DNA of 38,304 nucleotides from Elusimicrobiota bacterium. Its GTDB lineage: Bacteria > Elusimicrobiota > Elusimicrobia > Elusimicrobiales > UBA9959. Below are positions 5,251-24,415 of this stretch, one piece after another. The number at the start of each line of letters is the position of its first letter. Within the stretch, counting starts at the first letter, position 1. The position numbers and the translations under genes were made by a program. The stretch is taken from NCBI GenBank assembly GCA_030651035.1, contig JAUSCK010000120.1, forward strand, positions 1 through 38,304. The letters run 5' to 3'. The notes under the pieces are model-generated. The model searched no databases and was not told the origin of the DNA. It saw only the letters and a program-made list of their open reading frames with translations.

Positions 5251-5255
5251 GGGGC

Positions 5256-5285
5256 AAAAAACAGCCGGCCGCCCCTGGCGGCCGG
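5256..5285 (-). terminator. Intrinsic terminator of the receiver gene
   Basis: A perfect 9-bp stem (CCGGCCGCC / GGCGGCCGG, 3-nt loop, 5265-5285) is followed on the minus strand by a run of six T (5261-5256). It lies about 50 nt past the receiver stop. On the plus strand it could also slow polymerase leaving the cyclase gene, but there is no T run in that direction. Confidence 0.75.
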
Positions 5286-5337
5286 AAACTGAACAGCGGT
5301 CATCAACTTATATATCGGGCAGCTAAGCGGGAAGGCT

Positions 5338-5727
5338 TTACGGCTTCGCGGCGGGGCCTTCGCTTTTTTCAAACTCGGCTTTTACGGCTTTCAGGAGGTC
5401 GTTCGTCTCGAAGGGCTTGCGCAAGAAAGCGATCACCTGCGGAAAGCGCTCGAACATGCGCCTTGAGACTTCCAGGGAGGACATTACGATTATCGGGAGG
5501 CTGCCTAATTCCGCATCCTCGGAAACCTGGGTTGTCAGGGAGTAGCCGTCCATGCCGGGCATCATCACCTCCATTATCATAAGGTCGGGCTTGTAGGAAC
5601 GCAGGGTTTGAACCGCTTCGCGGCCGTTGGAACACACCTTAACCCAGTGGCCAAGCGGCTCAAGGGCGCATCGCAGCATGCCCGCGTTATCCGGATCGTC
5701 GTCTACGATAAGTATTTTTTTCCCCAT
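5338..5727 (-). CDS. Single-domain response regulator with Glu at the phospho-acceptor site
   Basis: This 129-aa CheY-like receiver consists of the receiver fold alone, without an output domain. From the chosen start (MGKKILIVDDD) it has the acidic cluster D9-D11, the switch Ser at 83-84 (IIVMSS) and the conserved Lys104 (RKPFE). The residue that is normally the phosphorylated Asp is Glu53, in IMEVMMPGMDG; the codon reads GAG. Asp-to-Glu is the classic phosphomimetic change, so the protein may be locked in an active-like state or switch by other means. An upstream in-frame ATG (5742) was rejected because it falls in the spacer of a good promoter whose expected start point is the A of the 5727 ATG. 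The preceding M16 peptidase gene ends 54 nt upstream. Confidence 0.85.
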   Translation of the reverse strand: MGKKILIVDDDPDNAGMLRCALEPLGHWVKVCSNGREAVQTLRSYKPDLMIMEVMMPGMDGYSLTTQVSEDAELGSLPIIVMSSLEVSRRMFERFPQVIAFLRKPFETNDLLKAVKAEFEKSEGPAAKP

Positions 5728-5733
5728 ATGATA

Positions 5734-5762
5734 ATTAAACATTAATCACAAAAAGCGGTCAA
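5734..5762 (-). promoter_or_regulatory. Sigma-70-like promoter giving a leaderless receiver transcript
   Basis: On the minus strand, TTGACC (5762-5757), a 17-nt spacer and TTTAAT (5739-5734) are followed after 6 nt by the ATG at 5727. Transcription would begin at or next to the start codon. No SD precedes the ATG. Confidence 0.5.
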
Positions 5763-5781
5763 GCCAAATCTCCGTCAGGAC

Positions 5782-9216: not shown

Positions 9217-9247
9217 ATGCTTTCCTTGTCCCGCAACACGTTCAATA

Positions 9248-9278
9248 CCGGCGCGCACGCCGCTTTATGCCGCGCCGG
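9248..9278 (-). other. GC-rich hairpin between MFS and peptidase genes
   Basis: An 8-bp perfect stem (CCGGCGCG / CGCGCCGG) encloses a 15-nt loop just after the MFS stop. No T run follows, so it may be an mRNA-stabilising or weak termination structure. It is common in GC-rich DNA and its role is uncertain. Confidence 0.3.
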
Positions 9279-9281
9279 CGG

Positions 9282-10511: not shown

Positions 10512-10562
10512 TCAGCCTCCTTTGGGGCGAAAAGAGCCCCGGATCCCGATCCCCCTTTAGAC

Positions 10563-11105
10563 CTATCCTTTATTTGGCGGCGCAGGGACCAGGAGGGCCT
10601 TAATCTCGGTGACAGCGCTTTCAACCCGGCTCACCCTCTCAAGCAGCTGGGACTGGGTGTTCCCGATAGAGACCAGCATAGCGCTCAGCTGGCCGAGTTT
10701 TTCCAGCAGCGGCCCCGGAACGCCGGGATTCAATTCGCTCTGCGGAACAGGGGCGGCGGCGGCCGGGCCCGGGGCCTGCCTGGCGGCCGTCGCGGGCTTA
10801 ACCGCGGCCGGCGGCCGCGTCTTGGCAGGCTCGTCAATTACCGGCGCTTCTATTATCGTCCCCCTTATAGTCATCGCGAAAGGAGATTCAGCGGCGGGGC
10901 TTCGGGGCTGAACCGGGGCGGGAACGGGAGTAAGGGCAGCCAGCACTTCAGGAAAAGCGGAGGCCGCTTTCCAATCATTGGCCTGCGCCCCGCCCGGGGA
11001 ATCCGGACAGAGCAGGGAGGAAAGGCTGAAATTCGCAAGCTCCGCCAATTTTTCCTTTTCAAACGGACCGCAGACTTTATTATCCATGTACACCCAATAT
11101 TGCAT
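10563..11105 (-). CDS. GYF_2-domain protein with C-terminal coiled coil
   Basis: The 180-aa product starts with MQYWVYMDNKVCGPFEKEKLAEL, a GYF_2 (DUF4339) type opening in which Trp, Gly-Pro-Phe and a following helix are diagnostic. A Pro/Ala-rich linker (about residues 65-130) follows. A C-terminal heptad-like helix (LLEKLGQLSAMLVSI, then LLERVSRVESAVTEIKALL) probably forms a coiled coil. GYF-type domains bind proline-rich partners or membrane proteins; no enzyme function is visible. The ATG at 11105 was chosen over the longer frame (11192) because GGAGG lies 6 nt upstream and the domain begins right at this Met. Confidence 0.65.
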   Translation of the reverse strand: MQYWVYMDNKVCGPFEKEKLAELANFSLSSLLCPDSPGGAQANDWKAASAFPEVLAALTPVPAPVQPRSPAAESPFAMTIRGTIIEAPVIDEPAKTRPPAAVKPATAARQAPGPAAAAPVPQSELNPGVPGPLLEKLGQLSAMLVSIGNTQSQLLERVSRVESAVTEIKALLVPAPPNKG

Positions 11106-11197
11106 AAGGCCCTCCAGCCCTGACCACCGCCGCGGCTCAGAATCAATAATACCAAAAAAATCGTAAATATTCAGTAAACCCGTCAATCCCATTTGTC

Positions 11198-11222
11198 ATC
11201 CCTGCGATCCGTTGGCAGGGAT
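11198..11222. repeat. REP-like hairpin repeat
   Basis: ATCCCTGC (11198-11205) and GCAGGGAT (11215-11222) form an 8-bp stem with a 9-nt loop. Together with the following GGATTCCCGCC (from 11239) it resembles the dispersed 'gtcatccc...ggatcca...ggattcccgc' palindromic repeats seen in many genomes. It lies just outside the transposase inverted repeat. Confidence 0.55.
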
Positions 11223-11258
11223 CCAAGCAGCTTTTTATGGATTCCCGCCTATAGTAGA

Positions 11259-11286
11259 GATGGGGGACGCTACACGATAACTCGAT
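11259..11286 (+). repeat. Left 28-bp inverted repeat
   Basis: It begins GATGGGGGACGCTACACG and runs to 11286. It is immediately followed by a copy of its last octamer (CGATAACT twice in tandem, 11275-11290), which the right repeat lacks. Confidence 0.8.
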
Positions 11287-11328
11287 AACTGGGTAGGGCA
11301 CGAATATATAATCGTTCTGGCAGAATTT

Positions 11329-11352
11329 ACCCCGACAGACGGTTGTCGGGGT
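11329..11352 (+). other. Perfect hairpin upstream of the transposase gene
   Basis: ACCCCGACA (11329-11337) pairs with TGTCGGGGT (11344-11352) across a 6-nt loop. It lies 47 nt before the transposase ATG, inside the element. It could be a transposase recognition hairpin or a regulator of transposase expression. No T run follows. Confidence 0.5.
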
Positions 11353-11399
11353 TGTCTGCTATGCTTTAAAGGATAAACAATCTTTTAAAGAGGTGGATT

Positions 11400-12374
11400 A
11401 TGCCACGAAACGCACGACTGGATATCCCAGGCTGTCTTTATCATGTGATCGCCAGAGGGAATGAACGGCGCAATATTTTTACTGATGATGCGGATCGTTA
11501 TAATTTTATGAGCCGGTTGGCTGTGGCTTTACGCCAGAACGGAAGTAAATGCCTGGCTTGGTGCCTTATGCCGAATCACTTTCACCTAGTGATCCTGCGC
11601 GGATTACGGCCGCTTTCCGAACTGATGCGCCGGCTTTTAACCGGTTATGTGGGAAACTTTAACAGACGGCATTTGCGGTGCGGACATCTATTCCAGAACC
11701 GGTATAAATCAATCCTTTGCGAGCAGGATGAATACCTGCTTGAACTGGTAGCCTATGTTCATTTGAATCCCCTGCGCGCAAGGCTTGTTGGGAAGTATGA
11801 GGATTTAAGAAGATACAACTGGTGCGGACACGGCGAGGCGCTTGGAACAGCGCGCACCGCGCTGATCGACAGGGATTATGTGCTTGATTACTATGGGCAT
11901 GGCGATGGGGATGCCGCAGCTAAATATGAAGAATTCCTCCGTGCACGTATAAACAAGTATAAAACCGGAGAGCTATCCGGCGGCGGGCTCCTGCGCAGTA
12001 TTGGCGGAGCAGCAAGCCTATTAAGTATGCGTCAAACCGGCGAAAAGGAAATGTCAGATTCGCGCGTATTGGGAAGCGGAGGGTTTGTCGAGGCGCTGTT
12101 GGCTCAGATAGAGAAAGAAACCGAACCAGGGGAAAGCGCTGAAGCGGTTCTTGAGCGTGTCTGCGCCGAAACTGGAGCAACTGCTGCCGAAATAAAAAGC
12201 AGAAGCAGGATAAGACGAATAGTAGAGGCCCGCGCCCGGTATTGTTATATGGCTGAAATGGCAGGGGTAAGCGGCGGACTTTTAGCGGAAGAACTAGGAA
12301 GGAATTCCGGATCTATTTCGTATCTTGTCGGTAAGGGCAGGGAGTTGGAAGAAAACAATCGAGTTATCGTGTAG
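11400..12374 (+). CDS. REP-associated tyrosine transposase (Y1_Tnp/RAYT)
   Basis: This 324-aa protein is of the IS200-like HUH type. It opens with MPRNARLDIPGCLYHVIARGNERRNIF, characteristic of REP-associated transposases. The metal-binding HUH motif is NHFHLVI (about residues 59-65), and LVAYVHLNPLRARLV carries the family's conserved helix; the catalytic Tyr should lie nearby, for instance in YVHLNP. Residues beyond about 170 form a helical C-terminal extension (about 150 aa) with a DnaA-like or HTH look (GVSGGLLAEELGRNSGSISYLVGKG). The start has GAGGTGG upstream. The gene is intact, and its final codons are part of the right inverted repeat. Codon use is less GC-rich than its neighbours, consistent with transfer. 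Confidence 0.88.
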   Translation: MPRNARLDIPGCLYHVIARGNERRNIFTDDADRYNFMSRLAVALRQNGSKCLAWCLMPNHFHLVILRGLRPLSELMRRLLTGYVGNFNRRHLRCGHLFQNRYKSILCEQDEYLLELVAYVHLNPLRARLVGKYEDLRRYNWCGHGEALGTARTALIDRDYVLDYYGHGDGDAAAKYEEFLRARINKYKTGELSGGGLLRSIGGAASLLSMRQTGEKEMSDSRVLGSGGFVEALLAQIEKETEPGESAEAVLERVCAETGATAAEIKSRSRIRRIVEARARYCYMAEMAGVSGGLLAEELGRNSGSISYLVGKGRELEENNRVIV

Positions 12375-12385
12375 CGTCCCCCATC
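12358..12385 (+). repeat. Right 28-bp inverted repeat
   Basis: Exact reverse complement of 11259-11286. It contains the transposase stop codon (12372-12374), so the coding sequence extends into the repeat. Confidence 0.8.
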
Positions 12386-12401
12386 CGTCCCACTGGTCTC
12401 T

Positions 12402-12430
12402 TTTATACTGCCGTCAAAGTAACATATAAT
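12402..12430 (+). promoter_or_regulatory. Promoter of the DUF2157 gene, probably leaderless
   Basis: TTTATA (12402-12407), a 17-nt spacer and a consensus TATAAT (12425-12430) stand exactly 7 nt before the ATG at 12438. The start point would coincide with the start codon. No SD is present. Confidence 0.5.
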
Positions 12431-12437
12431 TTAACCG

Positions 12438-13760
12438 ATGTCCTATTACAAAAAACTCAAAACAGATCTGACGGGCGCTGCCGCAGCGGGAATAATAACC
12501 CCGGAGCAGGCGGATAAGGTGTGGGAGCGCTCCTACTCCGGCAGGACCTTCGCCTCTTTCAAAGCCGCGCACTGGATAGCCGCCGCCTCCGGCCTCTTCA
12601 TAGCCCTGGGCGTGATACTTGTGGCGGCCCACAACTGGGACAAGATAGGCGATATCGCGAAAATGGGCGCCTTCCTTCTGCTTTTCGCGGGCTCCGCCGA
12701 AGCCGCCATGCGGCTTGAGGAGAAACCCTCAGCAGCGATACCGCTTGAGACCTTGTGGTTCTTCATGCCCGCGCTGGGGATAGGCCTTTACGCGCAGATC
12801 TTCAATCTGAGCGGCGACCCGGTGAAGCCTTACCTTGTCTGGGCCGCGCTTTCAGCCCCGCTGGCGCTGCTGTCGAAACGGCCGCTGGCCGCCTATCTCT
12901 GCTCCATACTGCTTTTTGCCGTGCTTTACTGGGGCACGCTGGGCTCGACCAATATGCTTTCGCTGACCATGGGCCGGAATGCGGCCGTTCAGCCGCTCTG
13001 GCACTGGGGCCTGGCGCTGGCCGTTCTCGGCGCCGGCTTCGCTCTTTACCCGGGGAAGAAACTCGGCAAGCCGCTCGGCGCCGCGGCCGTCTGGCTTTTC
13101 TTCATGCTGGTGGCGGACACGGCGATAAAAGTGCGCTCGAAGGCGCTGGTGCTGCTGGCCGGCATGTCCCTGGCCGTGCTGTGGCTCGCCTGGGGCAGAG
13201 GGGAAGATGAGGACGCGCGCCCCGGCCTGCCGCTCACGGTCTGGGTGGGAGCCGTATACGTGATGACATTTTTCTGGCATTACAGGCCCGACAGCTACCG
13301 CCTCCACGGCCAGGACACTACCGCCCTGGGGACGATGATCACCTGGGCGGCTTTCGCGGGGGCGCTTGTTACCCTGGCTGTCCGCAAACAGCGCCTGCTG
13401 CCGGAGGGGAAAATGGAGGATTACCTGGCCAAGGGCCTGCTGGCCGCCTCGATGCTCTGCGCTTTCCTGCTCTTCGACGCCAACGAGGGCTCGGCGAAAA
13501 TAATGGCGGTCATAGCGAACCTGATCCTGGCCGCCTTCGGCGCCGGCTGCATAATCAGCGGCGCCAAAAACTCCGACGAGAAAATGATAAACCGCGGCGT
13601 CCTGGTGATCACCCTCACCGCCGTAACCCGCTTCGTGGACATCTTCGGCGGCCTGCTGAAGAGCGGCGTGGCCTTTATAATCACGGGGCTCGCCTTCGCG
13701 GCGCTGGCCTATTTAATAAACCGGGGCCGCAAAGCCCTGATAGAGGCGGCAAAGAAATGA
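12438..13760 (+). CDS. DUF2157 multi-pass membrane protein
   Basis: This 440-aa protein has a cytosolic-looking N-terminal helix-turn region (about residues 1-45: LKTDLTGAAAAGIITPEQADKVW) and then about 12 hydrophobic segments. The first pair, GLFIALGVILVAAHNWDKIGDIAKMG, contains the AHNWD signature of DUF2157 proteins. The family has no established function. It is often paired with a GDYXXLXY protein, as here, where the stop overlaps the next ATG by 4 nt. The gene begins 52 nt after the transposase element and appears to use its own promoter. Confidence 0.85.
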   Translation: MSYYKKLKTDLTGAAAAGIITPEQADKVWERSYSGRTFASFKAAHWIAAASGLFIALGVILVAAHNWDKIGDIAKMGAFLLLFAGSAEAAMRLEEKPSAAIPLETLWFFMPALGIGLYAQIFNLSGDPVKPYLVWAALSAPLALLSKRPLAAYLCSILLFAVLYWGTLGSTNMLSLTMGRNAAVQPLWHWGLALAVLGAGFALYPGKKLGKPLGAAAVWLFFMLVADTAIKVRSKALVLLAGMSLAVLWLAWGRGEDEDARPGLPLTVWVGAVYVMTFFWHYRPDSYRLHGQDTTALGTMITWAAFAGALVTLAVRKQRLLPEGKMEDYLAKGLLAASMLCAFLLFDANEGSAKIMAVIANLILAAFGAGCIISGAKNSDEKMINRGVLVITLTAVTRFVDIFGGLLKSGVAFIITGLAFAALAYLINRGRKALIEAAKK

Positions 13761-14266
13761 GCAAATTACGGATTGTGCTTGGCCTGCAGCTCCTCTTCTT
13801 CGTCGCCTGGGGCGGCTGGCTGCTCTCCTCAAAGAACACCGCCTCGCCGGAGTTCTACCTGGAGACCGTCCCGGTGGACCCGCGCGACCTGCTGAGCGGC
13901 ACCTACGTGGCCCTCACCTATGGGATCTCGACCCCGCAGGCCGGTTCCTGCCTGGCCGTATTGAGCTCTAATTCGAAATTTTTCGTAAAACTGGAGGACC
14001 GGGGCAGGACAGCCGAAACTCCGGACGGCCCCGCCGCCGTATATGAAGCGACGGACTGCTCCAAGGACCCGGCCAACGAGCCCGGCTGGGTGAGCGCCAC
14101 CCTCCAGCCCAACTTCCCCAGGCCCGGCGCGCGCTACGGCATAGAGCGCTTTTTTCTGAACGAGAACGACCCGCGCAAGGACGCGCGCAGCGGCTCGGTG
14201 ATAGCCAAGGTGAAAATAGACCGCCGCCGCCAGCTGGTCCTTCTGGACCTGGTTAAAAAGATTTAG
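13757..14266 (+). CDS. GDYXXLXY-family membrane-anchored protein
   Basis: This 169-aa protein starts in an ATGA overlap with the DUF2157 gene. One N-terminal membrane segment (about residues 6-24) is followed by an extracytoplasmic-type domain beginning TVPVDPRDLLSGTYVALTYGI. The family is named for its GDYxxLxY motif; here the motif reads GTYVALTY, with Thr in place of Asp. The rest (YGIERFFLNE, IAKVKIDRRRQLVLLDL) fits the family. It probably works together with the DUF2157 protein in the membrane; the function is unknown. Confidence 0.8.
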   Translation: MSKLRIVLGLQLLFFVAWGGWLLSSKNTASPEFYLETVPVDPRDLLSGTYVALTYGISTPQAGSCLAVLSSNSKFFVKLEDRGRTAETPDGPAAVYEATDCSKDPANEPGWVSATLQPNFPRPGARYGIERFFLNENDPRKDARSGSVIAKVKIDRRRQLVLLDLVKKI

Positions 14267-14268
14267 CT

Positions 14269-14325
14269 CGCCAGCGGGCGCACTCGCCCCGACACCCGTC
14301 CGCTGGCGCGAACCGCCGGGCGGTT
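14269..14325 (+). other. Two consecutive hairpins upstream of pyrB
   Basis: CGCCAGCGG (14269-14277) pairs with CCGCTGGCG (14300-14308) across 22 nt, and AACCGCCGGGCGGTT (14311-14325) is self-complementary. They lie between the GDYXXLXY stop and the pyrB SD. They could end the upstream transcript or act in the pyrB leader. Only TTT follows, so intrinsic termination would be weak. Confidence 0.4.
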
Positions 14326-14350
14326 TGCCTCTAAACCCAAGGAGAACCTA

Positions 14351-15412
14351 ATGCAAAGAACGCAGGAAATGACCAGCGTGCAGCCGGACTGGGAGAACTT
14401 CTATCCCCGCCCCATCTCCGAAAAGATCCCGTACTTCTCAAAAGACGGCCGCCTTTACGACTGCCTCTTCGCCCAGCAGTTCAACCGCGAGCTGCTCGAA
14501 CACCTCTTTAAAACCGCCGACGCGCTGAGGAATATAACCCAGAAAAAGGCCGGAGCCGACCATGTCGGGAACCTGCTTTCCGACAAGCGCGCCATGCTCT
14601 ACTTCGTGCAGCCCTCCACCCGCACTTTCATGTCCTTCCTCAACGCCTGCCACATCCTGGGGGTAAAGACCTCCGAGATACGCGACACCTCCACTTCCTC
14701 CGAGGTGAAAGGCGAAACGCCCGAGGACACCGTGCGCACCTTCTCGAGCTACGTGGACATGATCATCATGCGCCACCCGGCCCCCAACTTCGTGGAAAAG
14801 ACCGCCTGGCTGATGAACCGCACCGGCCGGCCCGTGCCCATCGTCAACGGCGGCTCAGGCAAAGACCAGCACCCCACCCAGGCCCTGCTGGACATGTACA
14901 CGCTGCACCGCAGCTTCAGCGGCGAGCTGGACAGCAAGCATATCGTGATGGTGGGCGACCTGAAGCGCGGCCGCACCGTGCGCTCGCTCAGCTACCTGAT
15001 GAAGAACTATAAAAACGTCTCGCTGTCCTTCGTCTCGCCCAAGGAATTCCGCATGGAGGCCGACATCCTCGAGTTCCTTAAGCGCCACAATATCCCGTTC
15101 AGCGAAACCGAGGACTTCAGGGGCGTGATGAAGACTGCGGATGCCATCTACATGACCCGCATACAGGACGAGCACGACAAGTCAGGCGAATCCAAGGGAG
15201 TGGATTCCTCCCCTTTCTACTTCAAGAAAGAGCACCTGGCGCTGATAAAGAAAACCTGCGTGATAATGCACCCGCTGCCGCGCCGCCACGAGATCGAGGT
15301 GTCCGTCGACGACGACCCGCGCGCCGTGTTCTGGCGCCAGGAGCGCAACGGCATGTGGGCCCGCGCCGCCCTGATGGCCTACATCTTCGGCGTGGACGGG
15401 AAGATCGGGTAG
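14351..15412 (+). CDS. pyrB: Aspartate carbamoyltransferase catalytic chain
   Basis: This 353-aa enzyme joins carbamoyl phosphate and aspartate in the second step of pyrimidine synthesis. Visible motifs are the carbamoyl phosphate loop STRT (89-92), SSEVKGET (mobile loop with Lys120), RHP (141-143), the aspartate-transcarbamylase-specific HPTQALLDMY (174-183; ornithine enzymes have HPCQ), VGDLKRGRTVRSL and HPLPR near the C-terminus. The N-terminus is about 37 residues longer than E. coli PyrB, and the residues after STRT read FMSF instead of the common RLSFE or RxSF. No pyrI regulatory chain is adjacent. AAGGAG lies 7 nt before the ATG. A strong terminator follows. Confidence 0.9.
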   Translation: MQRTQEMTSVQPDWENFYPRPISEKIPYFSKDGRLYDCLFAQQFNRELLEHLFKTADALRNITQKKAGADHVGNLLSDKRAMLYFVQPSTRTFMSFLNACHILGVKTSEIRDTSTSSEVKGETPEDTVRTFSSYVDMIIMRHPAPNFVEKTAWLMNRTGRPVPIVNGGSGKDQHPTQALLDMYTLHRSFSGELDSKHIVMVGDLKRGRTVRSLSYLMKNYKNVSLSFVSPKEFRMEADILEFLKRHNIPFSETEDFRGVMKTADAIYMTRIQDEHDKSGESKGVDSSPFYFKKEHLALIKKTCVIMHPLPRRHEIEVSVDDDPRAVFWRQERNGMWARAALMAYIFGVDGKIG

Positions 15413-15460
15413 TCAGCGGGAAAAGCACTTTTCCAAGGGGTTGTAATAAGCCGCTAAACG

Positions 15461-15488
15461 AAAGGGCTGCCGGGGTCGGCAGCCCTTT
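15461..15488. terminator. Bidirectional intrinsic terminator
   Basis: An 11-bp perfect stem (AAAGGGCTGCC / GGCAGCCCTTT, 6-nt loop) lies between the convergent pyrB and DUF4105-like genes. T-rich tails follow on both strands. A smaller palindrome, GGAAAAGCACTTTTCC (15419-15434), sits just before it. Confidence 0.85.
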
Positions 15489-15506
15489 CTTGCGCGGGCG
15501 GGGCGG

Positions 15507-16811
15507 TTACTCGTGGAAAAGCTGCGTGTAGTTTGTCTCGTCCAGGTAGGGCAGGGGTTTTGAAACCAGCCCGCGCCTGGTCAGCAGCCTCGTCGCCGCG
15601 TCCGGGAGGGTGGCGCGCAGGCGGTAGATTATCTCGGGCAGCCAGCCTTCCACTATCTTTTCATTTTTGTTAAGGACGCCGTTGATGAAAGAGACCACGG
15701 CGTTGGTGCAGCTGTTGTAGATCAGCGAGTACATCTCGCCCGTCCTGTTGGCGGTAGCCTGCCGTATCGCGTTCTCCAGCAGTTTCACCTGGCGGTCGCG
15801 GGAGAGGGTGAGCGGGTACAGGGAGATGCGGTTGCCGTCGGTAAAGACGTTCTGCTCTACGTAGCCTTCCGCCGAGTTGATATTGTAGTGCACCGCGTAT
15901 CTGCCGCGCAGGCCGTCGATGATGCCCTGGTTCTGCACGCCGGGGACCAGCGAGTAGGTATTCACCGAGACCACCAGCCCGCGCACCGAATTGCCGTTCC
16001 CGTCCGTCACGCCGCCCGGCTTGAACTTGAAGGCCAGGAAGCCGTGCACTCCGGCGTAGGGGAAGCTCTGCAGGGATTTCTTGCCGACATAAGCCTGTTC
16101 GAGGAAATCCGGTTTCACGGTCACGCTCTTGGGCCAGATAAATTTGAAAATGCCGTCCGCGCGCTTCAGCCTCTTGCCGTCCGCGGAATGCTGCACGCCC
16201 CAGTTCACGTTCGCCAGCGCGTAGCCCCGGGAGTCTTTTGAAAGGATATAGGACTGTCTCTGCAAGTCCAGCGTAGCGGCCGAAGGCGCGTACGCCGCCG
16301 CCGCGTCCAGGGGCAGGACCGTCGCTATGGCGAGCTCGCTGGTATTGTCCTGCTGCCTGATGTAGCCTTCCACGCAGAACTCGGTATTACCCGTGTTCCT
16401 GAGCCATTTCGGATACTTGACCAACTTGTAAACCTTGCCTTCCAGCGTGGTGAAGGTGCGGGGAACGCGGTCGAGCTGCAGCGTGCCGTTCATAACGTAC
16501 CGGGAAGAGAAATCGGAGAGCAGCTCCTTCGTATCGCCCGGCTTGGCTTCCGGGCCCGAAGCGAAAATTTCGTCCCACTCGGCGGGGGTCAGTGAACCGG
16601 CGGGGCCGTCTTCACTCCCGGCTGCCGCGGGCGACAACAGGCCGGCGTCCGCCGGCGGGACGCCCGTCAGGGGGATACTGAGATCTAACTTTGAAATTTT
16701 TACCGCGGATAGTGAATTGAGAGTGAAAGGTTCCGCCGCTTTGGCGTTCAGTGAGCCCAAAAGGAAAACAAGCCCTGCCGCCAGTACCGCTTTTGATTTT
16801 TCTTTGGTCAT
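15507..16811 (-). CDS. Secreted DUF4105/Lnb-like protein
   Basis: This 434-aa protein starts with a signal peptide (KAVLAAGLVFLLGSLNAKA, cleavage near residue 25). After a low-complexity stretch, a mature domain contains PYAGVHGFLAFKF, then RQVKLLENAIRQA followed by MYSLIYNSCTNAVVSFING. This resembles the 'YN-x-NCTTN' core of DUF4105, the Lnb-type N-terminal periplasmic domain, in which a Cys follows an Asn. In that family the Cys and a preceding His (here the VHGFLAF His) suggest a papain-like (NlpC/P60-related) active site, but activity is not established. GAAGG lies 8 nt before the ATG. It has its own promoter. Confidence 0.6.
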   Translation of the reverse strand: MTKEKSKAVLAAGLVFLLGSLNAKAAEPFTLNSLSAVKISKLDLSIPLTGVPPADAGLLSPAAAGSEDGPAGSLTPAEWDEIFASGPEAKPGDTKELLSDFSSRYVMNGTLQLDRVPRTFTTLEGKVYKLVKYPKWLRNTGNTEFCVEGYIRQQDNTSELAIATVLPLDAAAAYAPSAATLDLQRQSYILSKDSRGYALANVNWGVQHSADGKRLKRADGIFKFIWPKSVTVKPDFLEQAYVGKKSLQSFPYAGVHGFLAFKFKPGGVTDGNGNSVRGLVVSVNTYSLVPGVQNQGIIDGLRGRYAVHYNINSAEGYVEQNVFTDGNRISLYPLTLSRDRQVKLLENAIRQATANRTGEMYSLIYNSCTNAVVSFINGVLNKNEKIVEGWLPEIIYRLRATLPDAATRLLTRRGLVSKPLPYLDETNYTQLFHE

Positions 16812-16854
16812 TAATTATACCTTCGCGTTCACCAAAATAAATTACCGTTATGAT

Positions 16855-16883
16855 AGTTTAGCGCACAAAGCCCCGTTCGCCAA
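16855..16883 (-). promoter_or_regulatory. Sigma-70-like promoter of the DUF4105-like gene
   Basis: On the minus strand TTGGCG (16883-16878), a 17-nt spacer and TAAACT (16860-16855) precede a leader of about 35-40 nt with an SD. Confidence 0.5.
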
Positions 16884-16891
16884 GGGCAAAA

Positions 16892-16914
16892 GGGCCCAAA
16901 AACGCATGGGCCTT
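16892..16914 (-). terminator. Probable terminator of the GHKL/pseudokinase operon
   Basis: On the minus strand GGCCCA / TGGGCC (6 bp, 8-nt loop) is followed by CCTTTTG. It lies about 40 nt past the pseudokinase stop and just before the next promoter. The stem is short. Confidence 0.45.
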
Positions 16915-16951
16915 ATGTTGCCGTGTGAAAAAGTCTTTAGGGGCCTGTCCG

Positions 16952-18283
16952 TCAGTTACAGCGCACTTTGAGGGACACATCGTCGTAATAGGCCTTCCTG
17001 GAGAACAGCGAAAGGGCGGTCACCGTCGAATCAAGTTCAACCCGGACTTTCTTCGTTCCCGCGGGGAGCGGGAACTCACAGACGCCGCGCGTCCAGTTCT
17101 TGGATTCCACCGGCTCGCAGGCGGTCCCGGAGGCGGGATCGTCGGCGTTGAGCTTCGCGTAGCCGTAAAGGAACGGGGCGCCGTCCTTCCCGAAGCCCGA
17201 GGCGCGCATATAGGCTGAAAGCTCCGCTTTGCACTGCCCGGAGGCGATAGACCCGGAAAAAGCGGAAACGTCCACCTCCTGCTTCACCAAGGGCATATCG
17301 TTCTCCGTGGCGAAGCAGTACTCGCCCGAGTTAGCCCCGCCTTTTTTCAGGACGGCGCCGTCAAAGGTCGGGAACATGGTCCAGCCGCAGGGCCCTTCCA
17401 GGCCGGGGTTTACCAGCAGGTTCTCTCCGAGCTTAATCTCGGGCCTGGGGAAGGACGAGCAGTTGAATTTCCTGAACAGCACCGTCGTAGCCGCTACCAG
17501 GCGCTTCGCGCGGAACTGCGGCCAGACCTCGAAGCGTATATAGAACGCGCCGTAAAAGAACAACAGCGCCACCGCCGCAGCCAGGGGCCAGGCCAAGAGC
17601 GGCAGCCCGTGCCTGAACCGTTTGAAGATCTGCGGCCGCGCCTCCGGCCTGGCCACGGGCCCGGCCCCCAGCGCCTCTATGCTCTTCAGCGCGTCTCCGG
17701 CGTCGGCGCCGGGAAGTTCAAGGTACCCGGCTATCTTGAAATAATCGGCCGAAAAGGTCCCCGCGCGCGGTGAATCGGCCAGGCGGCGCATAAGCCCGGC
17801 CAGTCCCTTCATGTCCCCCTCAGGCCCGGCCGAAGGCCCGCGGCCGCAGAGCAGCAGCCTGCCGCCCTTGGCCCTGAACACCGAGCCGGCCGAGACGTCG
17901 CCGTGCGCCACGCGCGGCGACAGGCCGTGCAGGTATTTCAGCGCCCGCGCCGTCTCGTAAGCTATCTTGACCGCCTCGAACTCGGTAAAAGTCCCTCCGG
18001 CCGCCGCTTCCGCCTGCAGGCTTTCCCCGTCGAAATATTCATAGACCAGGAATTTTTTACCCCCGGCCTCCCCGGCGCCTAAATAGGCCGGCAGGCAGGG
18101 GTGCGAAAGGAAGGGCGCGGCGCCGGCTTCGGCTTTTGACGCCTCGCGAAGGAGAACTTTTTCGCCGCCGGGCCCGGCGGCAGTGAAAACCGGGCCGCCC
18201 GCCCACGGCGCAGCCGGTGCAATCACCGAATATTTCCCTTCTTGTTCGCCGCCCATAAGTTTCTCGTCGTTCAGCCCGTTCAT
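16952..18283 (-). CDS. Membrane pseudokinase with extracytoplasmic carbohydrate-binding-like domain
   Basis: Residues 15-205 of this 443-aa protein follow the protein kinase fold: hinge-like KKFLVYEYFDGESL, and ETARALKYLHGLSPRVAHGDVSAGSVF in the catalytic-loop position. Key residues are lost. The VAIK Lys is Arg46, HRD-x4-N reads HGD-x4-S (127-134), and no DFG remains (LLLCGRGP). It should therefore be a pseudokinase that binds partners or nucleotide without phosphotransfer. A single membrane helix (about 228-248) is followed by a 190-aa domain starting NLLVNPGLEGPCGW, an opening typical of CBM4/9 and discoidin-like beta sandwiches. Cysteines near 275, 299 and the C-terminus suggest an oxidising compartment. 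The start overlaps the upstream stop by 4 nt (ATGA). Confidence 0.7.
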   Translation of the reverse strand: MNGLNDEKLMGGEQEGKYSVIAPAAPWAGGPVFTAAGPGGEKVLLREASKAEAGAAPFLSHPCLPAYLGAGEAGGKKFLVYEYFDGESLQAEAAAGGTFTEFEAVKIAYETARALKYLHGLSPRVAHGDVSAGSVFRAKGGRLLLCGRGPSAGPEGDMKGLAGLMRRLADSPRAGTFSADYFKIAGYLELPGADAGDALKSIEALGAGPVARPEARPQIFKRFRHGLPLLAWPLAAAVALLFFYGAFYIRFEVWPQFRAKRLVAATTVLFRKFNCSSFPRPEIKLGENLLVNPGLEGPCGWTMFPTFDGAVLKKGGANSGEYCFATENDMPLVKQEVDVSAFSGSIASGQCKAELSAYMRASGFGKDGAPFLYGYAKLNADDPASGTACEPVESKNWTRGVCEFPLPAGTKKVRVELDSTVTALSLFSRKAYYDDVSLKVRCN

Positions 18284-20982
18284 TTACCGCTCCCTCGCCT
18301 GGCCAGCTCGGCTAATGCGCGCTGGAAGTTAATGTCGTCGCTGTCGGTAAGCTTCACTTCCCGCCTGTTGAAATCGGTATAAAAGACGGACAGCAGGTAG
18401 TCCGCCTTGCGCAGCGGCGGCAGGCCGGAGCCAAGTATCTCCTCCGCCAGGTCGTTCTTCAGCCATTTCCCGTTCGCGGCCCGGTCCCTTATGAACGCCG
18501 CCACAAGCCGCGCTCCCGGAACATTGACGCGGGCGAGCTGCCGCGCGAGATACTCGGGGAAATTAGCCGCGGGGTCCGCCTCCAGGTCCTCCGCGCCGGG
18601 CATGGGGAGCGTGGGCCTGCGCTTCCTGGGTTCCTCAGGCTCTTCCGGCAGCAGGTCCTCCGGCGGCGGCTGCGCGGCCGGCGGTTCGGGCCGGGGCTCG
18701 GGAGGCGCTGGAAGGGGCGGGGGCGCCGCCGGGGCGGATGCGGCTTGTATGTCGGAAAGGGAGATCTCCAGCGCACGCGGGGCCCCCGCGGCCCTGCGGG
18801 AGCGCGGTATTATGATTATTTTCTGGCTGACGGCCACCTGGCTCAGGCTCTTCCTGCCCAGGAATTCCTCGGCGGCAGCGGGGTTCACCCCGTAATGCGG
18901 TATCCTGTACGTTATATTGGAGGTATCCCAGCGCTCCAGCGGCTCCAGGTCTTTCATGCCGGGACACCAGATCACGTCGAAGGGCAGCAGGATATCGGTA
19001 TACGGCTCCATGGAATATGGGACAAAGCCCAGCCTGTCATGCTGGGCCTGGACCTGGGCCAGGCTGCGCGGCTCGGCGTTTATGGTCAGGAAGACCGGGG
19101 CCTCCCACAGGGACTTCAGGACCTTGTCCCCGGAATCCTTTTTATAATCGGTCAGCAGGCGGCCGCAGGCCTCCCGGAGCCACAGCGTTATCCGCACCGC
19201 CTCGCGCACCAGGGCCTCGGCGCTCTCGCGTTTGGCGGCCGCCGCCCCGCCGCTTGGCAGGACCAGGCCGCGCGCGCGCTTCAGGAGCCCGCCCAGCAGG
19301 CCCGGTTCCACCGGCTTCCCCTTCTCCACGCATTTCTTCCAGTAAGCCTGCATCCCGCCGTAAGCCATCACCTTCCCGGCGGCGGGCAGGCTGGCGCCGT
19401 GCATGCGCAGCACATACTCGAGCAGCAGCGGGACCTGCAGGGCCACCTCGGCCAGGGCACTGGAACACCGGGTATTGTTCACCACCCCCGTCTGCGAGAT
19501 GTTCATCGTGAAATGATCGCTGTTAAGGTAGCCGGTAACCTGCAGGTAGTTCAGCTTTACCACCAGGGCGTTGTCCAGCGTGACGCTGGCTACGGCGGGA
19601 GTAAGGGTGCTCGACGGCGAGGGCCATTTCGGCACGCTGAGATGGCCGTGCACGGGCCCCTCCTCGAAGTAAAGGCCGGCCTGGCCGGAACCGGAGCGGT
19701 CGCGCGGTATATCGCGGCCGTTTATCAGCAGCGGCACCGGGCTCAGTGAGCAGCGCTCGCGCACGCGGCCGAGCAGGCGCCCGTTCCTGAACGGGGACAG
19801 CGGGCCGCTCCAGAGCAGGCGCACGACGGTCCCTTTGCCCGGGTCGTCGCTGCCCTGTACCGCCTCCTTGCCCAGCTCGTCGATCTTAAGCCGGAAGCGC
19901 GCCCCCTGCGGGCCCGAGCTTACCGTTATTACCTGCGGCTTAAGCCTGAGGGCGCAGAGCAGGCCGGTGGCCAGGTGCCTGGCGGCGGCGTTGGCGGCGC
20001 TCTTTGTTTCGAAAAGGGCGGCGTACGGGTCGGCCAGCCGCTCGCGGGTGAATGGTTCCCCGTCGAAGCGCAGCTCCACGCCGCCGGTCCTCACCTCGCT
20101 GATCGCGATCTCCGACGCTTTCCCGGCGTGGGCGCAGCGTATCATCGGCAGCAGGCAGTTTACCGGGTCCGGCAGCTGGAAGCGCATCAGCTTGTCGAGC
20201 GCCCGCTGCTTGTCCACGACGAAGCTGCCACTGCCCACGAACACCCCGCCGTCCTCCTGGAGCGCCGGGGCTTTCGGGCGCGCGGCGCTTTCCTCCGCCT
20301 CGTCTTCCGCTTCCTCTATGCCGTACTGCGCGGCCTTCAGGAGGTCCTTGACCGGCATGAACTCCCGCAGGCGCAAAAAACCGCTCTGGGGGCAGGCCGG
20401 GCTGTAATTCTTGAAGAAGGAGGCGGCGTACGCGTCGCGCGGCCCGAACATGGTCAGCGCGACCGTAACCTGCGCGGGGGGCGTGCCGAACTCGGCACTG
20501 TCCGGGGAGGTCAGCCCCCATTCCGCCCCCGCCTCTGTAACGCGCGGTATGACTTCCTGTTCCCATCTGACAACGGCCAGGCCAAGGATCTTCCTCAGTC
20601 CGTCGCTGCCCCACTTCTCCTTCTTCCCGCCGCGCCGCCCCTGGTAATAGAACGGCACGTCCCCAACCCAGACCACGCGCCCGCCGGCCTTCATATATTC
20701 CATCACCAGGCAGGTCGGAGAGCACTCTTCCGCCGCCATGTCCGGCACTATATCCTGCGAAAAGAAGCAGATGGACCCCTCGGCGCCGCCGTTTATCTGC
20801 GCGTTCATCCATTCGCGCAGCTGGAAAGCGGTCACCGGCACGAAGCCGGCGGCCGCGAAGGCTTTGGCAAGCTCCGTGCTGTTGCGCACCAGGCTGCAGG
20901 CGTAATCGTCGTCGCAGAACACGACCTTGCGCACCGAGTGCCAGTCGGAGACCTTTATCATGCCGGGGAGGGCTTCAGCCAT
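18280..20982 (-). CDS. 900-aa protein: amidotransferase-like domain plus degenerate GHKL domain
   Basis: Residues 15-215 look like a class I amidotransferase/ThuA-like Rossmann fold (KVVFCDDDYACSL, CFFSQDIVPDM, YMKAGGRVVWVGDVPFYYQG), without an obvious catalytic Cys. After an acidic linker, residues 250-430 read like a worn Hsp90-type GHKL ATPase: ALDKLMRFQLPDPVNCLLPMIRCA in the N-box position lacks the Glu and Asn, VELRFDGEPFT replaces D-x-G-x-G, and RHLATGLLCALRL and GTVVRLLW follow. Then comes a mostly unassignable region. A Pro/Glu-rich linker (about 755-815) leads to a helical C-terminal domain of about 85 residues. The gene overlaps its upstream neighbour, an intact Hsp90-like ATPase, by 8 nt, and its downstream neighbour by 4 nt, so the three proteins are probably made together and may form a complex. 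The domain calls are from motif reading only. Confidence 0.6.
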   Translation of the reverse strand: MAEALPGMIKVSDWHSVRKVVFCDDDYACSLVRNSTELAKAFAAAGFVPVTAFQLREWMNAQINGGAEGSICFFSQDIVPDMAAEECSPTCLVMEYMKAGGRVVWVGDVPFYYQGRRGGKKEKWGSDGLRKILGLAVVRWEQEVIPRVTEAGAEWGLTSPDSAEFGTPPAQVTVALTMFGPRDAYAASFFKNYSPACPQSGFLRLREFMPVKDLLKAAQYGIEEAEDEAEESAARPKAPALQEDGGVFVGSGSFVVDKQRALDKLMRFQLPDPVNCLLPMIRCAHAGKASEIAISEVRTGGVELRFDGEPFTRERLADPYAALFETKSAANAAARHLATGLLCALRLKPQVITVSSGPQGARFRLKIDELGKEAVQGSDDPGKGTVVRLLWSGPLSPFRNGRLLGRVRERCSLSPVPLLINGRDIPRDRSGSGQAGLYFEEGPVHGHLSVPKWPSPSSTLTPAVASVTLDNALVVKLNYLQVTGYLNSDHFTMNISQTGVVNNTRCSSALAEVALQVPLLLEYVLRMHGASLPAAGKVMAYGGMQAYWKKCVEKGKPVEPGLLGGLLKRARGLVLPSGGAAAAKRESAEALVREAVRITLWLREACGRLLTDYKKDSGDKVLKSLWEAPVFLTINAEPRSLAQVQAQHDRLGFVPYSMEPYTDILLPFDVIWCPGMKDLEPLERWDTSNITYRIPHYGVNPAAAEEFLGRKSLSQVAVSQKIIIIPRSRRAAGAPRALEISLSDIQAASAPAAPPPLPAPPEPRPEPPAAQPPPEDLLPEEPEEPRKRRPTLPMPGAEDLEADPAANFPEYLARQLARVNVPGARLVAAFIRDRAANGKWLKNDLAEEILGSGLPPLRKADYLLSVFYTDFNRREVKLTDSDDINFQRALAELARRGSGK

Positions 20983-22771
20983 TTTTGCCCCCGTCCAGCT
21001 TCAGCGCCGCCCGCAGCAGTTTCAGCTCCCTGCGCCAGGTAAGGTTGCTGGAGCCGGCTTCCGCGCCGGGAGGAATGCTGCCGTCCTGGTACAGCAGCAT
21101 GGACTTGAGCAGCAGGAAGGCCGCGAAGCCGGGGCGCGAGGCGTGCAGTTCAGCCAGGCCGGTTATGAACGGGTGGAAGCAGTCGATCACCGGATAGAGA
21201 CGGGCCTCGTTCCTGAACACCAGGCCTTCCTCCGCGTGCCCCGGACTATAAGGGTCCCTCTTGAACAGGAAGGGGTGCCGCTCCGCGGGGTTCCCGCCGT
21301 AAATGAACCTGGCCGGGTAAAAGGCGGAATAATCGCGGCCGCGGACGGAGCCGACGGCGGCCAAGGTCTTGAGGAAGGCCTCCATCCCCTTTCCGGCGGC
21401 GTCGGGCCGGACCTGTTCGCTAAGCACGTACTTCCCTATATCGACGGTCCCCAGCGGAAGCCAGGAGCTGAAACTGCAGGTCTCCGTCTGAAAAGCCACG
21501 GGGACGCCCATCTCCCCCAGCGCGCAAGTGACCGCGCAGGCCTTCCGCGCCAAAAAATAATATCTCTCGCCGGGCTTCAGGCCGACTTTTTTCCAGGCCT
21601 TAAGCAGTTCCTCCTGCGTTGCCGGCGCCCCGGTAACCGTCGGGACGATGCGCCATTCGTCGAAGTCGTGCCGGAAGCCGGCCAGGAAGGAGTTGCGCAG
21701 GAACCTGAAAAAATTAGTGCGCCGCCACCACTCGTACTCCAGCGCCCGGAGTTCGGCGGCGTCGGCCTGCGCCTCCGGTTTGGACAGGCGCAGCGCCAGG
21801 GCCTCCAGCTCGGCGCGCAGTTTTTTCGGGAGCTCTTTCGCGGCCTGGCGTTTTACTATAGCCAGCGCCTTGTGATAGTTGGCGTCCTCCATCACGTTGT
21901 CGCGGGTGATGGTGTGCTCGAGGTAGCGGGACTTTATCTTGAATTCCACGCCGGGGATAAAAAGCTTTTTCCCCTCCTTCAGGGTCAGGCCCCTGTTGTA
22001 AAAACCGTAAAAAGGCTCGCCCTCGAACCTGGAGCCGTCGCCGTAATAGCCGCCGCGCAGCTTCCTGGAGAGTTCCATCGTCGTACCGATGAAAGCGTCG
22101 ACCGGCGAGAAGGCCATGACTATCTCCGTGCCCTCCTCGCTGTAGCGCAGGCTCTCGCCGCCGGGCAGAGTGAAGAGCTCGTTGACCCGCAGCGGCGGCC
22201 CGCCCAGGGCGCGGTCGGAGAAGAAGATGTGCGTTTCGGCGTGGCGGCACCAGTACCTTACGGTCGCGAGCGATTTTTCGGACAGGGCCGCGTATTCCTG
22301 CGGGGACATCCTTTTATGGATCTCCACCAGCGTGCCGTCGCGCGGGTCGGGCATGCGGAACTTGTTGTAGGAGCGGTAATCAGGGAAATCCAGCCGCCAG
22401 CTCTGCGTGTTCTTCCCGGTATAGAGGCGCACCAGGTGCGGCTTCAGCGCGAAGACTGACAGAAAGCCCACCCCGAACTTGCCTATCTTGGTGAGATCGT
22501 TCTCCTTGGTGGATTTAAAAAGGACCAGCAGGTAATTGTCGACGACGGCCTCGTCCATGCCGCAGCCGTCGTCCTCCACGCGCATCACCGCGAGCCCCGG
22601 CCCGCCCTTCGGGTCGGGAGTATAATCCAGCGTGACGTCGATGCGGTTGGACCCGGCGTCGATGGCGTTCTGTATCAGTTCGCGGTAAAAAGCGAGAGTG
22701 TCCGAGAACTGGCTGACCAGGTCCTTTATCATGCCCTGCGCGGCGATGTTACCCCGGATCCCGCTATTCAT
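20975..22771 (-). CDS. Hsp90-like GHKL ATPase
   Basis: The N-terminal 200 residues of this 598-aa protein form an intact Bergerat-fold ATPase. The N-box YRELIQNAIDAG has catalytic Glu31 and Mg-binding Asn35, the G1 box is EDDGCGM (Asp67-Gly71), the lid has KSTKEND, and the G2 box is KIGKFGVGF (97-103). A middle region (about 230-330) containing YGFYNRGLTLKEGKK and HTITRDNVMED resembles the HtpG middle domain, where TRDNV supplies a catalytic-loop Arg. The remaining 250 residues are not HtpG-like: there is no recognisable C-terminal dimerisation domain and no HtpG client region. Ordinary HtpG is about 620 aa, so the length is similar but the C-terminal half differs. It is the second gene of the operon, 45 nt after the TPR gene, and overlaps the next gene by 8 nt. 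Confidence 0.8.
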   Translation of the reverse strand: MNSGIRGNIAAQGMIKDLVSQFSDTLAFYRELIQNAIDAGSNRIDVTLDYTPDPKGGPGLAVMRVEDDGCGMDEAVVDNYLLVLFKSTKENDLTKIGKFGVGFLSVFALKPHLVRLYTGKNTQSWRLDFPDYRSYNKFRMPDPRDGTLVEIHKRMSPQEYAALSEKSLATVRYWCRHAETHIFFSDRALGGPPLRVNELFTLPGGESLRYSEEGTEIVMAFSPVDAFIGTTMELSRKLRGGYYGDGSRFEGEPFYGFYNRGLTLKEGKKLFIPGVEFKIKSRYLEHTITRDNVMEDANYHKALAIVKRQAAKELPKKLRAELEALALRLSKPEAQADAAELRALEYEWWRRTNFFRFLRNSFLAGFRHDFDEWRIVPTVTGAPATQEELLKAWKKVGLKPGERYYFLARKACAVTCALGEMGVPVAFQTETCSFSSWLPLGTVDIGKYVLSEQVRPDAAGKGMEAFLKTLAAVGSVRGRDYSAFYPARFIYGGNPAERHPFLFKRDPYSPGHAEEGLVFRNEARLYPVIDCFHPFITGLAELHASRPGFAAFLLLKSMLLYQDGSIPPGAEAGSSNLTWRRELKLLRAALKLDGGKNG

Positions 22772-22816
22772 TTTGTTTCCATGGAAAACCGGCCTTTTTC
22801 ATTGAACGCGGCCCGC

Positions 22817-24415
22817 TCATGTTTCCTGCGGCCTGAGACCTGCGCCCTGCACGGCCAAAGGCAAAAAATGTTTCTCCGGCCGCCTGTAGCCGCCGCACAT
22901 CTTCAGCGTGTGCTCTATTACACGGATCATCTCAGGCCCGTTCAAAGTTTCTCCGCCGTCCATCCCGAGCCCTTCGCGCGCCAGCAAAAGAAGCTCAGGC
23001 CAGGTGGAAGCGGCGGCTTCATAGCTGCGCTTTATTTTCGACGCGTCTCCGCTGCCGCTGAAGATCAAAGCTCTGTTCAGGTAAACCCAGATATTGCGGC
23101 CGTCGCTGAGCCTGCCGGCAAGCTCCAGCTCGCGCAAAGCCCCGGGGTAAAGGCCGCACCGCCGGTAAGCCTCGCCGAGCCAGGTCCTGGCCTCCGCATC
23201 CTCCGGATCGGCGGCGACGCCCTTTTCAAGCTCGGCCACGGCGTTTTTCAGTTTGCCCATTCCCAGGTACGCCGCTCCCAGCCAGCAGGCGGCGTGGCGG
23301 CTGCCGTTGCTTTTCAACAGCCGGGCAGCTTCGCGGTATTTCCGCATGAACAGGAGCATCTCCCCTTCCCAGGCCCGCACGCTTTCCTTTTCGCCGGGCG
23401 CCGCGGAAGAACATGCGGCCTTGAATTTTTCCATCCCCGCCCTTATCCTGCCTTTACACAAAAGCGCTTCGCCGAGGCTGCACTGTACGACGAAGTGCCG
23501 GTAGCCCGAAGAAAGGCTTTTCTGAAAGCCGGAAATGGCCGCGTCGTACCGGCCGCTGTCGAGGCTGCGCCACCCGGAGACATAGCCGGCGAAGCCGTAC
23601 CTGCCGGCCTCTTTTTCCGCCAGTTCAGCTAAGCCCTTCAGGGCGGCTTCTTTCCGCGGGCCATGAAAGTTGATGGCCAGGGTATGGCTAAGATAAGCCA
23701 GGGACCCTTCCAGCCCCGGGCAGGCTTTCGTTTTTTCCAGATCGCGCTTATGCCGGATAAAATAAGCCGCGGGCAGCCTGTGTTCCAGGCACCAGGGATT
23801 CGCGACATCGAGCAGGCATAAGCGGGCCCTGGCTTCGCGCGGCGAGCTAAGCAGCGAGAGCGTTTCGCAGGCCTTTTTATAATACCCGAGCATGCAGTAC
23901 GCCTTGAAAAGCTGGGGGCTTAAGCCGGCTCCGGTCGCGGCCACGAAATCCAGAAGAGCGCGGCGCATTTTCCCCAGGTCCGGCTTTTTCCCGGCCTCGA
24001 TGGCCATTTGCCAGGAATCGAGCATATCGGTCCCGCGCGGGTTCCACCCCGGGTTATTTGCCAGCAGGAACATGAGCCTGCCGGCGTCTTCAAAGCCCGG
24101 GGAAAGGCCGACGGCCTTTTTAAGGCGGCAAAGGGCCCCGGCGCGTTCGCCTTTCTGCGCAAGGATGCGCGCCTTCAGATAATGCGCATGGGCGATACCG
24201 GGACCGCCGGCAAGGGCGCGGTCCGCGTGCAGTTCGGCTTTTGCCGTATCGCCTGAACGGAGCGCTATCTGGGCAAGATGCAGTTCCGCCTGCACAAGGC
24301 CGCCGTCAAAACATAAAGCGCGCCCGAAGAATAGCCCGGCCTTCCGCAGGTCGCCGCGCTCAAGGAAAAATTCTCCGTTTTTCATCGCTTCGCGCGCGGC
24401 TGTCGTGTTTGGCAT
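22817..24415 (-). CDS. TPR-repeat protein
   Basis: This 532-aa protein is built of tetratricopeptide-like helical pairs. Clear repeats sit at the N-terminus (NGEFFLERGDLRKAGLFFGRAL, then LHLAQIALRSGDTAKAELHADRAL and YLKARILAQKGERAGALCRLKKA) and near the C-terminus (AYLGMGKLKNAVAELEKGVAA, WLGEAYRRCGLYPGALRELELA), with more diverged copies between. No signal peptide is visible, so it is probably cytosolic. TPR proteins are classic Hsp90 partners, which fits its place as first gene before the Hsp90-like ATPase. The start is uncertain: the ATG at 24415 is preferred, with a weak GGAA upstream; a TTG at 24460 would add 15 residues. Confidence 0.8.
   Translation of the reverse strand: MPNTTAAREAMKNGEFFLERGDLRKAGLFFGRALCFDGGLVQAELHLAQIALRSGDTAKAELHADRALAGGPGIAHAHYLKARILAQKGERAGALCRLKKAVGLSPGFEDAGRLMFLLANNPGWNPRGTDMLDSWQMAIEAGKKPDLGKMRRALLDFVAATGAGLSPQLFKAYCMLGYYKKACETLSLLSSPREARARLCLLDVANPWCLEHRLPAAYFIRHKRDLEKTKACPGLEGSLAYLSHTLAINFHGPRKEAALKGLAELAEKEAGRYGFAGYVSGWRSLDSGRYDAAISGFQKSLSSGYRHFVVQCSLGEALLCKGRIRAGMEKFKAACSSAAPGEKESVRAWEGEMLLFMRKYREAARLLKSNGSRHAACWLGAAYLGMGKLKNAVAELEKGVAADPEDAEARTWLGEAYRRCGLYPGALRELELAGRLSDGRNIWVYLNRALIFSGSGDASKIKRSYEAAASTWPELLLLAREGLGMDGGETLNGPEMIRVIEHTLKMCGGYRRPEKHFLPLAVQGAGLRPQET

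Follow-up and report, generated by a model that had tools for sequence, protein, structure and literature searches.

A divergent bacterial Hsp90 encoded beside a pseudo-Hsp90: a putative two-gene chaperone machine in Elusimicrobiota and Myxococcota

The four-gene locus and its pseudokinase

The window, i.e. the whole stretch of 38,304 nucleotides that was analysed, is contig C51 of a 4.47-Mb Elusimicrobiota genome (G000, 96% complete), a close relative of which is the Elusimicrobia MAG G006. Four genes lie head to tail on the minus strand within positions 16952-24415, surrounded by ordinary genes. In agreement with a sequence-only reading of the same DNA, the last three overlap, by 8 nt (ATGGCTGA, between HSP and PSEUDO) and by 4 nt (ATGA, between PSEUDO and PSK), and a gap of 45 nt separates the TPR gene from HSP. 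From 5′ to 3′ of the coding strand, the genes are:

22817..24415, minus strand: TPR protein, 532 aa from ATG, 5′ of HSP (Pfam TPR_16, 3.2e-13)
20975..22771, minus strand: HSP, 598 aa, divergent full-length Hsp90 ATPase with intact ATPase motifs, as judged by Pfam, hhalign and Foldseek
18280..20982, minus strand: PSEUDO, 900 aa, pseudo-Hsp90 carrying additional parts at both termini, as judged by hhalign and by comparison of the AlphaFold model with the PDB
16952..18283, minus strand: PSK, 443 aa, putative membrane pseudokinase (Pkinase match of 1.2e-6, which misses the gathering cut-off; L023 and L024 have paralogs)

The three downstream genes can be considered real because a paralogous set occurs in the same genome (68, 61 and 50% identity for HSP, PSEUDO and PSK, respectively), with dN (about 0.25–0.44) well under dS (about 0.8–1.3). 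No promoter-like site was found on the minus strand of the window, which means little for Elusimicrobiota. The TPR protein had been proposed as a co-chaperone-like adaptor, a role that did not prove to be conserved: no homolog of it was found at any other HSP locus, and its relatives elsewhere are only 24–34% identical, so that it belongs to the group by position alone. A functional unit of four genes including the TPR protein was thus rejected.

PSK is predicted to have a truncated kinase-like part, followed by a single membrane helix and, at the C terminus, an outside domain:

17534..17605, minus strand: transmembrane helix of PSK, with KRFRH just before it (hydropathy 2.0 over 19 residues)
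16955..17533, minus strand: predicted extracytoplasmic C-terminal domain of PSK (from the topology)

The Pkinase match covers profile positions 52–124 of 263 only. The loss of all three catalytic signatures had been claimed; this is right for the beta-3 Lys and DFG, which are gone, and not for HRD, the Asp of which is kept in the window copy as HGD (HGA in the paralogs). The membrane helix, also predicted earlier, was borne out by hydropathy, and by the positive-inside rule the KRFRH stretch before it places the kinase part in the cytoplasm. Concerning the carbohydrate-binding-like nature suggested earlier for the outside domain, a CBM_4_9 (PF02018) match was obtained with a PSK paralog only, and it was sub-threshold (E 0.006).

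An Hsp90 with intact ATPase motifs and a neighbor that has lost them

The features of HSP, numbered by residues of the window copy, are:

22646..22684, minus strand: N-box RELIQNAIDAGSN, with Glu31 (catalytic) and Asn35 (Mg-binding); E and N in 43/43 homologs
22556..22576, minus strand: G1 box EDDGCGM, with Asp67 (adenine-binding); Asp67 in 43/43 homologs
22466..22489, minus strand: G2 box KIGKFGVG; Gly97, Gly100 and Gly102 in 43/43 homologs
21902..21904, minus strand: Arg290, aligned with the Arg of SREILQ in the HtpG middle domain (gamma-phosphate sensor); 42/42 homologs covering the site
21128..21196, minus strand: motif YPVIDCFHPFITGLAELHASRPG of the Hsp90 C-terminal (dimerisation) domain; colinear with TRAP1 (c-E 2.2e-5) and with HtpG ELNPDHVLV

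The N, G1 and G2 boxes had already been recognized as intact. The C-terminal half had been described as unlike that of HtpG, and this description has to be abandoned. Single-sequence searches with HSP detected the ATPase domain alone, with Pfam matches to HATPase_c_3 (5.8e-12) and SACS (1.1e-9; 38.9 bits against a cut-off of 32.8), while hhalign with a profile and five aligned HtpG sequences matched the two proteins end to end (Prob 99.4, E 3.3e-21, 504 columns), at about 19% identity. In this alignment, HTITRDNVMED of HSP corresponds to LNVSREILQDS of HtpG, the catalytic loop that carries the middle-domain Arg. A profile of 16 HSP homologs matched an HtpG N-domain structure (2e-9) and then, colinearly, the TRAP1 C-terminal domain. 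The AlphaFold model (mean pLDDT 79) gave in Foldseek top matches that were Hsp90 throughout the list, with full-length coverage (E 7.5e-18). So, on the grounds of alignments and model, it can be said that HSP is a divergent but complete Hsp90, with N-M-C order and intact ATPase motifs; the C-terminal dimerisation domain is indicated by the TRAP1 alignment and by the Foldseek coverage, its sequence signal being weak. As a relative of HtpG, it may act as an ATPase and chaperone in dimeric form. The Pfam HSP90 model, PF00183, matched neither HSP nor anything else in the genome of the window, which marks HSP as a divergent relative rather than a canonical HtpG. The family would add bacterial Hsp90s missed by that model, and it is the sole Hsp90 detected in this genome.

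The features of PSEUDO are:

20263..20982, minus strand: N-terminal extension, residues 1–240, in the G000 and G006 copies only (unmatched in other PSEUDO members)
18928..20220, minus strand: Hsp90 N+M-like core, residues 255–685 (profile, mostly high-confidence model, Foldseek)
20107..20154, minus strand: degenerate N-box LLPMIRCAHAGKASEI, Glu to Met280 and Asn to Ala284; both residues gone in 48/48 members
20050..20067, minus strand: G1 box degenerated to FDGEPF, with Phe306 for Asp and Pro310 for the second Gly
19492..19494, minus strand: Gln497, replacing the middle-domain Arg; Q in 19/22 Elusimicrobiota PSEUDO
18298..18594, minus strand: helical C-terminal domain, residues 797–895 (profile of about 750–895 matched in many Elusimicrobiota loci)

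The homology of PSEUDO to Hsp90 is visible with profiles and not with single sequences, which gave nothing useful in Pfam, NCBIfam, PADLOC or PDB searches. A profile built from 22 PSEUDO members, with no HSP sequences, could be aligned to that of HSP (Prob 98.6, E 1.4e-15) along 250 columns, which comprise the N domain and the beginning of the middle domain; the comparison with HtpG gave E 7.7e-5. The AlphaFold model, the input alignment of which had no HSP rows, led to the same family: the 50 PDB matches listed were all Hsp90, TRAP1, GRP94 or HtpG, the best one being TRAP1 (E 5e-14), as expected from the GHKL fold suggested earlier for this protein. Outside the core, an amidotransferase-like region had been suggested for the N-terminus and was not confirmed: residues 1–240 had no Pfam match and a pLDDT below 50. 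Much of 686–796 was modelled poorly. Across the family, size varies from 900 to 2400 aa, and the extra parts are variable.

The absence of the N-box Glu and Asn, first noticed in the window copy, extends to every PSEUDO member considered. The position of the adenine-binding Asp is occupied by F, W or Y in 43 of the 47 members with a residue there. The middle-domain Arg is gone in 22/22 aligned Elusimicrobiota members and kept in 6 of the 20 Myxococcota members with a residue at that position. PSEUDO is, as far as profiles and model can tell, a pseudo-Hsp90 with an Hsp90 N-M fold that has lost its ATPase residues. That the gene is decaying into a pseudogene was rejected, given purifying selection (dN/dS far under 1) and the fixed substitutions.

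Pairing across two phyla and the AAA+ module

HSP was found in 14 of 341 Elusimicrobiota genomes and in 87 of 379 Myxococcota genomes (the phylum to which the Myxococcales locus L051 was taken to belong), counts that do not represent independent events because relatives share descent. Genes were located by means of six-frame profile searches, as a simple gene caller gave antisense ORFs in high-GC loci. In Elusimicrobiota there are 20 HSP loci, 18 of them with sequence beyond HSP, and PSEUDO lies directly 3′ on the same strand in 17 of these 18; in the other one, L064, it is convergent, on the opposite strand. The Myxococcota sample consisted of L050–L052 plus 20 loci picked by HSP score and contig size, not by PSEUDO, and here PSEUDO was directly 3′ of HSP in 20 of the 23 loci, the exceptions being L085, where it is 2.3 kb off, and L091 and L094, where none was detectable. 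A single orphan PSEUDO was found (L026), also devoid of the catalytic Glu and Asn. Two or three PSEUDO genes accompany one HSP in L050, L058, L060, L061, L062 and L086. With the catalytic Glu and Asn in 43/43 HSP and 0/48 PSEUDO proteins, the suggestion that an active and an inactive GHKL protein are encoded side by side, with homologs clustered also in other genomes, was borne out, and we regard the pairing of HSP with a pseudo-Hsp90 as solid, close to certain.

The same genome contains, in contig C249, what can be considered the parent locus, with the gene order coiled-coil, 329-aa protein, AAA+, HSP, PSEUDO, 112-aa coiled-coil protein, kinase-like/WD40 protein and PSK. The order is the same in G006, and both genomes share the downstream flank of this locus. 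The coiled-coil/329-aa/AAA+ genes are located 5′ of HSP, directly or after a short gap, in eight loci, and the module is detectable also in Myxococcota (L086, L096). The AAA+ gene occurs in 13/341 Elusimicrobiota genomes, all 13 with HSP, and 13 of 14 Myxococcota genomes with AAA+ have HSP. A relationship of the coiled-coil genes to ZorA was considered and dropped, the matches being weak coiled-coil ones only. The sequence-only reading contained neither the parent locus with its AAA+ module nor the spread to Myxococcota.

Each of the 13 Elusimicrobiota genomes with the AAA+ has a single gene for it (in pieces in G182), against up to three copies of HSP, so extra pairs like that of the window are satellites without an AAA+ of their own. 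In the HSP tree, the window copy forms one group (support 1.0) with those of C249 and G006, its branch being 0.51 versus 0.21 and 0.25; the tree fixes this trio, not the order inside it. The operon of the window is a satellite copy, with a longer branch, which has retained the pair and the membrane pseudokinase.

A possible asymmetric clamp and its alternatives

Hsp90 is active as a dimer, and descriptions of it speak of a homodimer. As it works as a two-arm clamp, a mixed clamp is the simplest account of an intact Hsp90 that stays together with a dead one, and the presence of both genes side by side in two phyla makes an unequal chaperone pair probable, in which one arm is the motor and the other is dead. 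The best explanation, to which we assign a probability of roughly 0.55, is a two-gene Hsp90 machine, an asymmetric clamp with one catalytic arm. HSP and PSEUDO would form the heterodimer, HSP supplying all the ATP hydrolysis and PSEUDO acting as a nucleotide-independent arm that contributes structure and specificity for clients or partners. The loci where a lone HSP is accompanied by two or three PSEUDO genes fit one engine with several partners that can be exchanged. At full loci the clamp may work with the conserved coiled-coil/329-aa/AAA+ module; the window operon, as a duplicated satellite, would use the single AAA+ of the parent locus or need none, and PSK could tether the clamp to the membrane. 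In what cellular role the pair might act can be proposed only with low confidence.

For a true heterodimer of HSP and PSEUDO the chances appear about even. Against it, the clear profile homology between the two proteins stops halfway through the middle domain; beyond this point, where the dimerisation domain would be expected, PSEUDO gives a weak colinear match only (E 0.004). Also against it are the loci lacking a detectable PSEUDO (L091, L094), its distant or opposite-strand location in L085 and L064, and the orphan of L026. The most ambitious version is tentative, its odds being somewhat below even: an obligate heterodimeric Hsp90 kept in two phyla, in which dead subunits can be exchanged and the only AAA+ module of a genome serves several clamps. 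With its own C-terminal domain, HSP could also homodimerise, and in that case PSEUDO would dock on an ordinary HSP homodimer, without protomer exchange, as a co-chaperone or adaptor dedicated to it. The complete N-M-C architecture of HSP, the size and variable extras of PSEUDO and the loci with up to three PSEUDO genes agree with such an adaptor, which we nevertheless consider unlikely: PSEUDO has the Hsp90 fold through the N domain and the first middle domain, which are the regions that build the closed clamp, and at most loci the pairing is about 1:1 in adjoining genes.

Other roles were judged more improbable. GHKL ATPases might serve in an anti-phage or other biological-conflict system, and the patchy distribution, the expanded paralogs, the commonness of kinases in conflict systems and the weak matches of HSP to the GHKL domains of PADLOC TmtA (3.8e-9) and MzaB (0.0012) point that way. 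The likeness to TmtA and MzaB is limited to the N domain, however, with no full-length match, and no other component of the TmtA or Mza systems was found with PADLOC; the tested PSEUDO proteins matched no PADLOC model, neither PSEUDO nor the tested neighbors gave a match to a nuclease, a pore or any further effector domain, and the flanking genes are ordinary, with the conserved flank of the parent locus mentioned above. No full-length family member was found on plasmids or phages, which speaks against a conflict system, a distinctly unlikely reading altogether, and also against a mobile element, an idea that was rejected. Less plausible still, and in our opinion very unlikely, is the membrane-linked sensor suggested in the sequence-only reading, in which the kinase or pseudokinase takes a signal from outside and controls an ATP-driven assembly. 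Membrane kinase-like genes do lie beside the pair in the window, in L023/L024 (a kinase/WD40 protein plus PSK) and in L060/L061 (an intact kinase adjoining PSEUDO), and the topology of PSK favors a cytoplasmic kinase part, but such genes occur at a minority of loci, do not form one orthologous set and show no ligand-binding domain above threshold.

Returning to the asymmetric clamp, the need for ATP hydrolysis in both arms of Hsp90 has been studied with engineered heterodimers. The working mode proposed for HSP and PSEUDO, an asymmetric clamp with one hydrolysing protomer, resembles that of engineered active/dead heterodimers of TRAP1, the mitochondrial Hsp90, and of other Hsp90s; those heterodimers are laboratory constructs of one gene (PMC5550277; Mishra and Bolon 2014, as cited in PMC11687934), while HSP and PSEUDO are two diverged genes kept together in two phyla. 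A heterodimer of TRAP1 in which one site is dead reaches the closed state with near wild-type kinetics and re-opens slowly (PMC5550277). Half-site cycling would accordingly need another release step, and it may be speculated that the AAA+ module perhaps provides a dedicated one. No description of an active/dead Hsp90 gene pair was found in the open-access literature, and, where they bear on the matter, two accounts of groups A, B and C of bacterial Hsp90 do not describe dead partners (PMC1525184; PMC3708813). What is new here is an Hsp90 with a dedicated pseudo-Hsp90, Hsp90 itself being already known. If the heterodimeric clamp is real, evolution would have split the motor arm from the dead arm, making the role of each ATP directly testable, in a lineage that sometimes has several alternative dead arms per motor arm and has kept the pair across two phyla.

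HSP has in common with HtpG the N-M-C order, the GHKL motifs, the middle-domain Arg, the C-terminal motif and a length of about 600 aa, and differs from it in the low sequence identity, in falling outside PF00183 and in being encoded with a catalytically dead partner. Sacsin is another protein with Hsp90-like N-domains, a resemblance reflected in HSP passing the SACS cut-off of Pfam. Unlike sacsin, HSP has M and C domains and no sacsin repeat array, and its dead copy is a separate gene.

Genes adjoining the HSP-PSEUDO pair

At two loci, HSP (the divergent full-length Hsp90 ATPase) is followed by two copies of PSEUDO (the pseudo-Hsp90 lacking the catalytic Glu and Asn), and this HSP-PSEUDO-PSEUDO set is directly adjoined by a kinase gene, in a position near that of the pseudokinase in the window:

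L060 3016-4041 and L061 8939-9964: Ser/Thr membrane kinase in which VAVK, HRD and DFG are intact

Two further genes occur in other loci:

L023 16103-16441: coiled-coil protein of 112 aa, small and rich in lysine
L056 12763-14310: AAA+ gene of G182, split into several frames

The former is conserved 3' of PSEUDO in several full loci, in which the pair occurs with the coiled-coil/329-aa/AAA+ module. The genes neighbouring the latter are intact, and its splitting reflects either a sequencing error or real decay.

Gene orders and forms of PSEUDO

The order in L086 (Myxococcota, 4340-18802) is an AAA+ gene, two lipoprotein-like ORFs, HSP and three consecutive PSEUDO domains, each in a separate open frame. 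In L064 (= L048, 8876-12097), HSP ends in a piece similar to the C-terminal domain of PSEUDO, while PSEUDO itself is encoded convergently on the opposite strand, close to the contig end; this arrangement is either a rearrangement or an assembly error.

The PSEUDO proteins of L088, L093 and L102 (Myxococcota) are very long (about 1700-2300 aa). The PSEUDO core matches them weakly at a second place as well, which suggests an internal repeat.

An orphan PSEUDO core of 470 aa is encoded in L026 (G000:C143, 9498-10910, minus strand). It shares 28% identity with the window PSEUDO, as well as the degenerate signature, and HSP was not found within the 20 kb examined.

A transposase-type gene in the window

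On its plus strand, the window encodes at 11400-12374 a transposase-type protein of the IS200-like Y1 kind.

A DnaA-like helix-turn-helix lies at the C-terminus of this protein, which resembles REP-associated tyrosine transposases.
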